In this document: positions 58,373 through 63,462 of the stretch, piece after piece
How the letters are laid out: every line of letters starts with the position of its first letter
Numbering within the stretch: the first letter of the stretch is position 1
Assembly: GCF_030254645.1 (NCBI RefSeq)
Contig: NZ_CP116346.1
Span: 3,885,001 to 3,949,000, forward strand
Direction: 5' to 3'
Length of the DNA stretch: 64,000 nucleotides
DNA from: Paucibacter sediminis
Lineage (GTDB): Bacteria > Pseudomonadota > Gammaproteobacteria > Burkholderiales > Burkholderiaceae_C
Translations under genes and position numbers: made by a program
Notes under the pieces: model-generated
What the model was told of the DNA's origin: nothing
The model's database searches: none
The model's input: only the letters and a program-made list of their open reading frames with translations

Positions 58373-58426
58373 GCCTGCTTGCCCAACGTCGTTCTTGTCA
58401 CCCCACACCCATCCGGAGGTCTTGCC

Positions 58427-58939
58427 GTGAATCGTAGCGATCAGTACATCGGATTGTGCCGCCTATTGATGCTCGCCCTGCTGGGGGGATCGGCCATGGC
58501 CGGCGAGGTGCCCGCCGGCGGCGCGGCGGATCTGCGCGCCCAGGTCTGGGCCGCGGAATGCGCGTTCGCGCGCAGCATGGCCGAGCGCGATCTGCCGGCC
58601 TTCGAGCGCCATCTCTCCGAGCAGGCGCTGTTCTTCGGCTCCAGCCAGGTGCACCGCGGCAAGCCGGCGGTGCTGGCGGCCTGGAAAGGTTTTTACGAGG
58701 GCGCGCAGGCGCCGTTCTCCTGGGCGCCCGATTCGGTCGAGGTGCTGGGCGACGGCACGCTGGCCCATTCCACCGGGCCGGTGCGCAATCCCCAGGGCGA
58801 GCTGGTGTCGCGCTTTGCCTCGGTGTGGCGGCAGGAGGCGCCGGGCCAATGGCGCATCGTGCTCGACAAGGGCGTGCCGCTCACGGCCGCCGAGCGCGAG
58901 CGCGCCAAGGAGGCGCCGGCCAAGCCGCTGTGCCCCTGA
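58427..58939 (+). CDS. Secreted NTF2-like (SnoaL/DUF4440) protein
   Basis: A 170-residue protein, GTG start with a strong GGAGGT six bases upstream. N-terminal signal (about 8-25, LLMLALLGGSAMAG). NTF2-like cone: AECAFARSMAERDLPAFERHLSEQALFFG, then GKPAVLAAWKGFYEG, and WRQEAPGQWRIVLDKGVPL. The family binds small ligands or acts as ketosteroid-isomerase-like enzymes; function here unknown. Its stop lies three bases before the stop of the convergent amidohydrolase gene. Confidence 0.85.
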   Translation: MNRSDQYIGLCRLLMLALLGGSAMAGEVPAGGAADLRAQVWAAECAFARSMAERDLPAFERHLSEQALFFGSSQVHRGKPAVLAAWKGFYEGAQAPFSWAPDSVEVLGDGTLAHSTGPVRNPQGELVSRFASVWRQEAPGQWRIVLDKGVPLTAAERERAKEAPAKPLCP

Positions 58940-58942
58940 AAT

Positions 58943-60289
58943 TTACCGGGCCGTGGCCGGGTAGCGCTGCTGGTATTTGTCGCGCAGCCGGGTCTGGCGG
59001 TCTTCCAACGCCAGCTCGCGGCCGGCGATGAAGATGCGCTCGATGCGGGTGCCGGCCTCCAGCGGATCGCCATCGGCGACGAACAGATTGGCCAGCCGGC
59101 CCGGCTGCAGCGAGCCCAGCAAGGCCTCGGCGCCGAGGATCTGCGCGGGGTAGAGCGTGATGGCCTTGAGCGCTTCGGCGCGCGGCAGGCCATGGGCGAC
59201 GGCGGTGGCGGCCTCGAAGGGCAGGCGGCGCTCGTTGGCCGCATCGCCCTCCGCGCCGCCGCGCGCGATGCAGTAGCGCAGCCCGGCCGCATGCAGGCGC
59301 GCGGCCAGGCGCAAGGGCGCGTCCGCCGCATCGTCGCGGCGCAGCGGCAGCCGGTGCACGCCGGCAATCACCACCGCGGCATCGGCCGCCTTGAGGGCGT
59401 CGGCCAGCAGCGGGGCGTCGTAGCCGCCCACGATCACCAGCTTCAGATGGTGGCGCTGGGCCAGGCCCAGGGCCCAGCGTATCTGCGCCGCCTCGTCGGC
59501 ATGCACGAACACCGGCAGCTCGCCGCGCAGCGCCGGCAGCATCGCCTCCCAGCGCGTGTCCGGCGCCAGGCCGGGTTCGGCGCTGCGCGCCTTCAGATAG
59601 GCGGCGGCCTGCTCGAAGCTCTCCTCCAGGCTTTGCAGACGCTGGCGCGCCAGGCGCTTGTAGTCGGCCAGCCTGGCCTCGTCCAGCATCGGCAGCAGCT
59701 GCGCATTGGCGCGCAGCGAGGGCGGGCGCACATGCAGGCCCACGGCGGGGCGCAGCGCCATGTCCTCCCAGTTCCAGCCGTCCAGTTGCAGCAGGGCCGA
59801 GGTGCCCGAGATCAGGCCGGCCGGGCCGCTGCGCGGCACCGTCTGCGTGGCCAGCACGCCGTTGGCGCGCGTCACCGGGATCAGCTCGCTGTCGGCATTC
59901 ACCGCCACCAGCGCGCGCGCGTTCGGATTCAGGCTGCCGGCCTCGGCGGTGTCGACGGTGGCGCGCACCGCGGCCACCTCCACCAGGCCCAGGGCCGAAT
60001 TGGCGGCGATGAAACCGGGGTAGACATGCTTGCCGGGCAGGGCCAGGCGCTCGGTGCCGGCGGGCAGCTGGAGGGCCTCGCCCTCGGCGGCCACCGCGCT
60101 GATGCGGCCCTGCTCCAGCAGCAATTGGCCGCGCTCCAGCACCGCGCCGCTGACGGTGTGCAGGGTTGCGCCGCTGATCAGCAGCGGCCGGCTCTGCGGC
60201 GCGGGCGGCACATTGGGCGTGCCGTGCACAGCGCCGCTGGTGAGCAGCGCTGCCAGCCAAATAGTCGTGATGCTGGCCCCGCGCTTCAT
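58943..60289 (-). CDS. Secreted amidohydrolase-like protein lacking metal ligands
   Basis: A 448-residue protein with signal peptide (1-23, ending SGAVHG) and amidohydrolase composite fold: [30 protein letters not shown] (urease-like beta sandwich), barrel, and C-terminal [20 protein letters not shown]. The metal site that normally reads D-x-H-x-H is FIAANSALG here (N97 and A99 instead of His). The later His and Asp ligands are also mostly missing (only FVHADEA keeps a His). A non-catalytic partner or scaffold is likely. The gene overlaps the larger amidohydrolase by 4 bases (ATGA). Confidence 0.85.
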
Positions 60290-63200
60290 GGTGCGTCCTC
60301 CGTGCATTCATGCCAGGCCCCGCCGGCCCAATAGCTGCCACGCAGGCGCGTGGCCTGGTGGACCTCGTTCTGCAAGGCCAGCCAGTCCAGCAGCTCGCGC
60401 ACCGGGCTGCCGCCCGCGGCCGCGGGGCGGCCGGCGGGTGCCGCCTGCAGCGCGGCCAGGCGCTCGGGCAGGGCCTTGGCCAGCAGGCGCTGGCGTTCGC
60501 GCTCGGCGGCCTGGCGCAGCTCGGCATCGCGCGCCAGGCTGTAGCTGCGGCGGCCGTCGATCCAGGTCTGCTCGGCACGGCTGTAGCCGGACAGCGGCGG
60601 GCCGCTCCAGATCACGAAGTCGGCGTCCTTGCCGGGTTCTAGCGAGCCGACGCGCTGCTCCACGCCCAGCTGGCGCGCCGGGTTGATGGTCACCAGCTTG
60701 AGCGCCTCGGGCTCGGACATGCCACCGTACTTGACCGCCTTGGCGGCCTCGGTGTTGAGGCGGCGCGCCAGTTCGTCGCTGTCGGAGTTGAAGCTGGACA
60801 GCACGCCGGCGCGCGTCATGATGACGCCGTTGTAGGGCACGGCGTCCTGTACCTCCATCTTGTAGGTCCACCAATCGCTGAAGGTGGAGGCGCCGGCGCC
60901 GATGCTGGCGATCTCGCTGGCCACCTTGTAGCCCTCCAGCACATGCTGGAAGGCCGCCACGCGCAGGCCGAATTCCCTGGCCAGGCGGGTGAACATCAGG
61001 ATCTCGTCGGCGCGGTAGGCATGGATGTGGATGGCGCGCTTGCGCTCCAGCAGCTCCACCAGGGTCTCCAGCTGCAGATCGCGGCGCGGCTCGGCGATCG
61101 CCTTGGGGTTGCCCTGCCAGCGCGCGCGCTCGCGCTGGTAATGGCGCGCGGTCTGGAAGGCGTCGCGCAGCAGCTGCTCCACGCCCATGCGGGTCTGCGG
61201 GTAGCGGCTGCTCGCGGCCTCCCAGCTCTGCTTGACGTTCTCGCCCAGCGCGAACTTGATGCCGGGCAGGGCGCCCTTGAACTTCAGCGCCTCGGCGTCC
61301 TGGCCCCAGCGCAGCTTGATCACCTGGCTCTGGCCGCCGATGGTGTTGGCCGAACCATGCAGCAGATTGGCGGTGGTGAGGCCGCCGGCCAGCTCGCGGT
61401 AGAGGTTGATGTCGGTGGCGTCCAGCACATCGCCCACCCGCACCTCGGCGGTGATGGAACTGCTGAACTCGTTGATGCCGCGCGCGATCGCGGTATGCGA
61501 ATGCGCGTCGATCAGGCCCGCGCTGACATGCTTGCCGGCCAGCTCCAGCAGCTCGGCGCCGGCCGGGGCCTTGAGGTCCTGGCCGATGGCGCTGATCTTG
61601 CCGTCCTGCACCAGCAGGTCGTGGTTCTCCAGCTTGCCGGCGGGGCCGCTGGTCCAGAGCGTGGCATGGCGCAGCAGCAGGGCCGCGGGGCGTGGCGCCA
61701 GGGTTTCGGCCAGCGCGCCGGCCGGGTAGCCGGCCGAGGGCGGGGGCGGCAGGGCTTCCGCCTTGGGCGGGGCCGCCTCGCCGGCCTGGTGCGGCGCCAC
61801 GCGCCGCGCCTCCCAGCTCTGCCGGCTGCCATCGGGCCGCAGCAGCTGGCCGCTGAGGCGCTCGCCATCGAGCTCGGCCACCAGCTGCTGCCATTGCGCG
61901 GGCTCGACCTGGCCGCAGGGCAGGCGCAGCAGCAGCTGGCGGCCCTGCTGGCGCAGCTCGCAGCGCGCATCGCCCAGGCTCAGCTCGGGCTTGGCCGCGC
62001 TGCCGCCAATCTGCCAGCTCGCGTCGGCGAGCTGCCAGCGCCCGCGCAGATCGGGGCGCGCGGCGGCTTCCAGCGCATAGGGCTGGCCATCGACAAAACT
62101 CCACTCCGGCTCGGCCTGCTCGTCGCGGAACAGGTCGCCGCGGGCGATCAGCAGATTCGCCAGATGGCCCGGCTCCAGGCTGCCCAGTCGTGCGCTTTCG
62201 CCCACCAGCCGGGCCGGCACGGTGGTCAGCGCGGCCAGGGCCTGCTCGGGCGCCAGGCCGCGGCGCACCGCCTGGCGCAGGCGCGGCCAGAACTCGCGGC
62301 GCGGCTCCTTGAGCCCATGGGCCGAGAGTGCGAACTCCAGGCCCTGGGCCGCCAGATAGGCCGCGTTGGAGGGCGCCTGCTCCCAATGCTGCAGGGTCTC
62401 CAGGCCCACATCCAGCGCGGCATCGGGCTGCTCCAGCTCGGGCGCGGGCGGGAAGTTGAGCGGCAGCAGCAGCGGCGCGCCCAGCGCCTTGAGCTGGGCC
62501 GCGCGACGGTATTCGTGGCCATTGCCCTGCAGCACCAGTCTGAAGCCGAACTCCTCGCGCAGGCGGCCGATGCGCGCATAGTCCTGCTCGTCGTCGGCGG
62601 CGAAGAACACCGGCTGGCGCCCGGCCACCGCGTCCTGCAGCGCCGCCAGGCCGGCATGGGCGGCGATGCGCTCAATGCCCTGGGGGCCGCCACGGGCGGC
62701 CTGCTGCGCCTGCCCGTACCAGCGCGTGTCCGACCAGGTCTGGCGCAGCAGCGCGATGCTGCCCATCAGCGAATTGGGATAGGCGCGCCCGTTGTCCACA
62801 TCCAGGCCCAGATGCTGGGCCACGCGCTCGGCCAGCAGCAGGCGCTTGGCGTCACCGCCATCGCCCAGGTTCAGCAGCGCGCTCTGGCCGCGGAAGATGC
62901 CCACCGAGGGCGCGGCCAGCACGGTGGTGAAACCCAGCTCGCGCGCGGCCTTGAGCTCATCGGCCTTGAGTTCCAGCTGCGTGCCCACCTGCTGTTCGGC
63001 GCGCAGCATGGTGTTGGACGCCGCCAGGCCGCGGCCCGTCAGCGGCGGGATCGGCCGCGCGGCGGCCGGCGGCGCGTCGGCGCCGGGGCCCCAGCGCGGG
63101 TTGACGGGCGGCCGCTCGCGCAGGGCCGCGGGCACGCCCAGGCTGCTGGCCAGGTCGATGAAGCCGGCATAGACGGTGCGGCCGGGCAGGGCCCAGACGC

Positions 63201-63462
63201 GCGCACCCGCCGGCACCGGCAGCTGGGCGCCGACGGCCACGATCAGGCCGTCGCGCATCACCAGGGTGCCGCGTTCGATCACCTTGCCGGGCGCCAGCAC
63301 CAGGCGCGCCTCGGTGATGGCGTGCCAGCGCGGGCTGTGGTCGTGCAGGCCTTCGACGCGCTCGACGCCGGGCTGGGCCGCCGCCGTCAGCACCAGCGCG
63401 CCGGCCGCCAGGGCGAAAACAGACCGCGGCGCGCGTGGCGCACCGCATCGATGGCTGGGCAT
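60286..63462 (-). CDS. Secreted tandem amidohydrolase (inactive N-terminal unit, metal-competent C-terminal unit)
   Basis: A 1058-residue protein with signal peptide (about 1-29). Unit A (30-470) has the amidohydrolase outline ([27 protein letters not shown]) but reads DLASS at 103-107 where ligands should be. A middle segment (470-600) has a beta-rich part and a Pro-rich linker. Unit B (595-960) is complete: DAHSHTA (H654, H656), HIHAYR (H812, H814), FQHVLEG (H840), FNSDSDE (D894 or D896), [14 protein letters not shown]. Imidazolonepropionase-like periplasmic hydrolase; natural substrate unknown (peptide-like amides are usual in relatives). AAGGAGG five bases before the ATG at 63462. Confidence 0.88.

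Follow-up and report, generated by a model that had tools for sequence, protein, structure and literature searches.

Why should a bacterium maintain three amidohydrolase-like units in two adjoining genes when only one of the three has a full set of metal ligands? The question is raised by a gene pair in the window, by which we mean the whole stretch of 64,000 nucleotides of Paucibacter sediminis DNA that was analysed. Gene 1 encodes two of the units (A and B) and gene 2 the third (C); the coordinates of both genes and their features are collected in Table 1. A frame opening at an upstream ATG at 60307 would extend the product of gene 2 to 454 aa (58943-60307, minus strand). The beta-rich domain between units A and B has no Pfam match. 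On the plus strand a small convergent gene (58415-58939) with a DUF4440/SnoaL-like domain and a signal-like start ends a few bases from the end of gene 2, and it does not recur among the 80 named loci described below.

Table 1. Features of the two overlapping genes (positions in the window; residue numbers of P0001 where given)
Feature	Position	Strand	Basis
Gene 1, A-B protein P0001, 1058 aa	60286..63462	-	Open frame; 61-row alignment A4; model pLDDT 87.1, pTM 0.87
Signal-peptide-like N-terminus of gene 1, end approximate	63373..63462	-	Sequence; hydrophobic stretch in relatives (heuristic)
Unit A, amidohydrolase-like, without metal ligands (about residues 45-465)	62068..63330	-	phmmer to 3ooq; ligand table
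Unit A, HxH position, A-S-S	63142..63150	-	Alignment
Beta-rich domain between A and B (about residues 474-557)	61792..62043	-	Predicted strands in model
Unit B, ligand-bearing amidohydrolase (about residues 590-976)	60535..61695	-	Pfam PF01979; 3ooq match
Unit B, HxH, H654 and H656	61495..61503	-	121/121 B units
Unit B, K736, candidate carboxylated lysine	61255..61257	-	121/121 B units; strand 734-738 in model; carboxylation inferred
Unit B, H814	61021..61023	-	121/121 B units
Unit B, H840	60943..60945	-	121/121 B units
Unit B, D894	60781..60783	-	121/121 B units
ATGA overlap, gene 1 stop and likely gene 2 start (ATG at 60289)	60286..60289	-	Sequence
Gene 2, C protein P0002, 448 aa from MKRGAS (likely start)	58943..60289	-	Open frame
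Unit C, amidohydrolase-like pseudo-unit	58970..60187	-	3ooq E 1.1e-22; PF01979 26.6 bits; ligand table
Unit C, HxH position, N-S-A	59993..60001	-	Alignment
Unit C, H269 (beta-5 His), sole ligand position retained	59501..59503	-	Alignment

The best sequence match of A, B and C alike is one solved protein, 3ooq, and the three are therefore homologous rather than alike by chance. Much the strongest match is that of unit B (E 3.4e-57), with nearly the whole unit aligned to the structure (VIA Z 45.8 over 369 residues, rmsd 2.0); unit C matches with an E of 1.1e-22 over 3ooq residues 7-385, so that its homology runs over the barrel, and unit A with an E of 1.9e-8 (phmmer). Against a cut-off of 25 bits, P0001 scores 84.2 bits with Pfam PF01979, its best stretch (646-956) lying in unit B, and unit C scores 26.6 bits. 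As a guide to substrate, NCBIfam gave matches that all fell far below cut-off; neither the Xaa-Pro dipeptidase model (NF051886, 93.9 bits with 500 needed) nor that of imidazolonepropionase (hutI, TIGR01224, 74.7 bits with 298 needed) reached its threshold.

The preliminary description of this DNA had read HxH, two further His and Asp in unit B, and all are present; to these ligands of the amidohydrolase superfamily we add Lys, K736, as a candidate not named before. A carboxylated lysine that bridges two metals is a feature of dipeptidases and dihydroorotases, and by analogy K736 would be carboxylated and play the same part here. Unit A of the window has kept none of the six ligands and unit C one. 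The earlier readings at the HxH position (IDLASSLG in A, IAANSALG in C) are as claimed; the further claim that both units lack the later ligands is true of A but not of C, which retains H269, as the beta-5 His is retained in 50 of 110 C units.

Relatives were gathered in three ways: 40 loci were retrieved through C, 80 named loci by two B peptide patterns, one with HSH and one with Lys, and Bacteroidota through a profile, with ligands read at 20 loci picked for open-frame size from the 148 genomes searched. The 80 named loci are drawn from the Pseudomonadota, Bacteroidota, Planctomycetota, Acidobacteriota, Verrucomicrobiota, Armatimonadota, Ignavibacteria, Zixiibacteriota, Eisenbacteria, Marinimicrobia and KSB1. 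Units truncated at the end of a contig, those of fewer than 330 residues and those below score limits were left out; the window, the 40 loci and the 80 loci then gave 85 A, 121 B and 110 C units, and the 20 Bacteroidota loci a further 11 A, 20 B and 19 C. The set H654, H656, K736, H814, H840 and D894 is complete in 121/121 B units of the first count, although HxH and Lys were partly selected for at the 80 loci by the patterns used to retrieve them, and in 19/20 of the further Bacteroidota loci; of these 141 B units the one that falls short (L210) is masked over the Asp. Two of the six is the most that any of 96 A or 129 C units retains: the first count gave none, one or two ligands in 73, 10 and 2 A units and in 47, 47 and 16 C units, respectively, and the Bacteroidota loci gave at most two in 11/11 A and 19/19 C. 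The original picture of one ligand-bearing unit beside ligand-free homologues thus extends well beyond the window, and orthologous sets in which every unit keeps its ligands were sought among all these units and none was found. At the beta-6 His position Gly is found in 103/110 C and 65/85 A units. In unit C of two loci (L114 and L087) the HxH position still reads AHSH or AHTH with the other ligands gone, and we regard these motifs as relics of an active ancestor.

The dead units travel with the living one. Among 398 Pseudomonadota genomes drawn, B (E up to 1e-60) is present in 62, the genome of the window among them, in 63 copies; C lies downstream on the same strand for all 63, and no genome of the 398 has C without B. 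Of the 148 Bacteroidota genomes, 94 have B and 93 have C, and these are the same genomes save for one (G464), in which the DNA downstream of B is masked. In both phyla, then, an inactive homologue is inherited with the active unit, as a heteromer would lead one to expect. The set is not peculiar to the genome of the window, and the ligand losses are alike in at least 10 phylum-level groups. Unit A was found elsewhere in none of 30 genomes with the two-gene (B and C) arrangement, the matches there being copies of B or C, and the same search recovered A in two positive controls (G212, 575 bits; G396, 607 bits), so that A is not generally needed, a point that tells somewhat against the reading we prefer. 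We think it probable that these genes encode a secreted hetero-oligomeric amidohydrolase in which B is catalytic, with C and A as pseudoenzyme subunits standing in for the other members of an ancestral homo-oligomer.

That A and C are instead copies in the course of decay in the lineage of the window is scarcely credible. The dN/dS of C does reach 0.84 between the window and one relative (NG86, with dS unreliable in such GC-rich DNA), as decay would have it, but the frames are intact, the losses are identical across the phylum-level groups just mentioned, and in comparisons with three relatives (L063, L064 and L065) dN is below dS in all nine, a result subject to the same unreliability of dS.

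Gene order offers a further indication of association. It is invariably A-B-C, laid out as AB+C, A+B+C, A+BC or B+C, and at many loci the B and C genes overlap or almost touch. The 80 named loci comprise 63 with AB+C, seven with AB alone, five with A+B+C and two with A+BC, together with single cases of B+C (cut by a contig end), A+AB+C and C+B+C; the 40 loci and the window comprise 12 with AB+C and 29 with B+C. Of the 20 Bacteroidota loci, 10 have the three units as separate genes, nine a B+C pair of a second kind and one a masked A-B. Natural B-C fusions occur in the Acidobacteriota (L129:4902-7514 and L130:4878-7709) with a separate A gene upstream. At one locus (L161:2536-6260) unit A is spread over two overlapping frames, possibly through a frameshift or a sequencing error. 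The second, more distant two-gene pair of the Bacteroidota (L201-L209) follows the same rule, its B-like unit having six ligands and its C-like unit none or one, and A being absent. These layouts bear on the proposal, to which we give only a small chance, that C and A have acquired an activity of their own (metal-free chemistry, or the binding or delivery of a ligand) and serve the same pathway as B without sharing a complex with it. Such a role would explain why conserved positions of C and A are unlike those of B, and why C can lie apart from AB, as it does in six genomes (of the seven loci with AB alone, L126 stops at a contig end and the other six all have C elsewhere in the genome); it sits poorly with the natural B-C and A-B fusions and the constant order. 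Nor is a third pathway gene linked: when 381 flanking frames at the 80 loci (L103-L182) were clustered, no neighbour was conserved across lineages, and the clusters were lineage-local only, the largest covering eight loci.

The hetero-oligomer that we prefer leaves the question of what its dead subunits contribute. It is possible, though rather unlikely, that C and A sit in the complex while taking no part in catalysis, the heteromer having been fixed by neutral mutation after duplication of a homo-oligomer and the dead subunits being now impossible to lose, since exposed interfaces or folding have come to rely on them; complexity of this kind after duplication is the subject of a modelling study (PMC11066126). 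Neutral entrenchment accommodates the obligate co-inheritance and the loss of catalytic residues without any single replacement motif, and it also fits the faster evolution of the pseudo-units (mean pairwise identity 0.363 in A and 0.349 in C, with 0.488 in B). This last pattern would equally arise from relaxed constraint, which counts to some extent against a working hetero-oligomer. However, the non-glycine residues that C keeps as its own (E110, D119, N137, S140, R147 and R360, each in 0.90-1.0 of 110 units) would not be needed for mere filling of a surface.

How the dead units arose is best judged from an 84-row tree, rooted between B and the rest by imposing B as outgroup. Its B side has the form (second Bacteroidota pair, (two-gene pair, trio)) and its C side (second Bacteroidota pair, (two-gene pair, (A, C of trio))), so that the B and C trees have the same three-part shape. 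Because the C side mirrors the B side, we favour a single old duplication, with the metal site lost once, before the system spread, and with dead C then duplicated to give A. Unit A stands beside the C of the trio with a support of 87, and most simply descends from dead C; the rival split, with all C apart from A, gave AU p values of 0.039 and 0.040 in two runs, a marginal rejection. When six far amidohydrolases served as outgroup in a first tree, A and C both fell on the same side of B (support 88), but C formed a side of its own with a support of only 29 and the place of A was not resolved; the case for where A came from therefore depends on the 84-row tree and the marginal AU test. Positions common to A and C as against B, for example R at column 691 and G at 705 and 840 (B numbering), agree with a common dead ancestor, and descent of A from dead C is favoured without being settled. 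A recent triplication is rejected on the distribution and the tree, and the triplication with loss in two units that was first suggested is less favoured by the phylogeny than a single loss in the ancestor of C and A and a later duplication of the dead unit.

The same description had placed an active-plus-pseudoenzyme assembly in the periplasm. A hydrophobic signal-like stretch, called by a heuristic rather than a signal-peptide predictor, precedes the domain in 65/66 AB, 7/7 A, 6/6 B, 2/2 BC and 69/70 C proteins, in keeping with that location, and the persistent linkage and natural fusions suggest the assembly; contact between the proteins is predicted indirectly, through pTM. The AlphaFold2 model of the A-B protein of the window (61 rows) has a mean pLDDT of 87.1 and a pTM of 0.87, which is not an interface score, and that of the natural B-C fusion of L130 (43 rows) a pLDDT of 85.1 and a pTM of 0.84, with its linker (467-526) below pLDDT 50. 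For two barrels of equal size that are not confidently placed relative to each other we would expect a pTM of about 0.5, although homologous halves such as those in both models can favour pseudo-symmetric packing.

In the mechanism that we propose, catalysis would fall to B alone, a TIM-barrel hydrolase in which HxH, carboxylated Lys, His, His and Asp probably make up a two-metal centre. Its substrate may be a small amide, peptide or cyclic imide, cleaved on the outer side of the inner membrane, a class suggested by the nearest folds only. C would be a pseudoenzyme paralogue of ancient origin and the partner of B, and A a second pseudoenzyme, which probably arose by duplication of C and in the lineage of the window is fused to B. 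Both most likely occupy positions that in the ancestral homo-oligomer belonged to identical subunits, and on them B may depend: they could make B more stable, form part of its active site or close over it, and perhaps also bind a ligand. It is conceivable, if somewhat short of probable, that the A/B/C genes represent a widespread secreted class, fixed in at least 10 phylum-level groups, whose active unit never occurs without a dead sister and whose core is an ancient half-dead heterodimer with a pseudoenzyme that completes or gates the active site of B and was later duplicated as A and fused to B.

With a dead paralogue tied to its living counterpart in many phyla, several gene layouts that serve as natural tests by fusion, and a dead unit that seems to have undergone a second duplication, the system lends itself to clean comparison on the question why cells retain inactive enzyme copies, be it for allostery, stability or through neutral entrenchment. 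It is also a warning that many of the proteins that carry an amidohydrolase annotation are probably no enzymes on their own. No published account of the A/B/C system was found in a literature search that was thin on subscription journals, and the system may be new to the literature.

Among known proteins, 3ooq, the solved amidohydrolase of Thermotoga maritima MSB8 whose entry title gives no function, has HxH, Lys, His, His and Asp residues that align with those of B, but unlike the A-B protein it is a single unit; no literature pairing the code 3ooq with 'amidohydrolase' was found. Isoaspartyl dipeptidase, the prolidase 3n2c and the L-Lys/L-Arg carboxypeptidase Cc2672 (3mtw) have the same fold as B (Z 22-24, identity 15-21%) and carboxylated-lysine two-metal centres, and we know of no pseudoenzyme subunit in any of the three. 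The nearest tested precedent for the proposed mechanism is the aspartate transcarbamoylase of Pseudomonas aeruginosa, which needs an inactive dihydroorotase chain for activity and stability (PMC7053772). There too an inactive chain of amidohydrolase fold stands beside an enzyme, with a need for the partner that in the present case is our proposal; but the dead amidohydrolase of P. aeruginosa serves an unrelated transcarbamoylase (PMC7053772), whereas the dead chain here would partner an active amidohydrolase paralogue.
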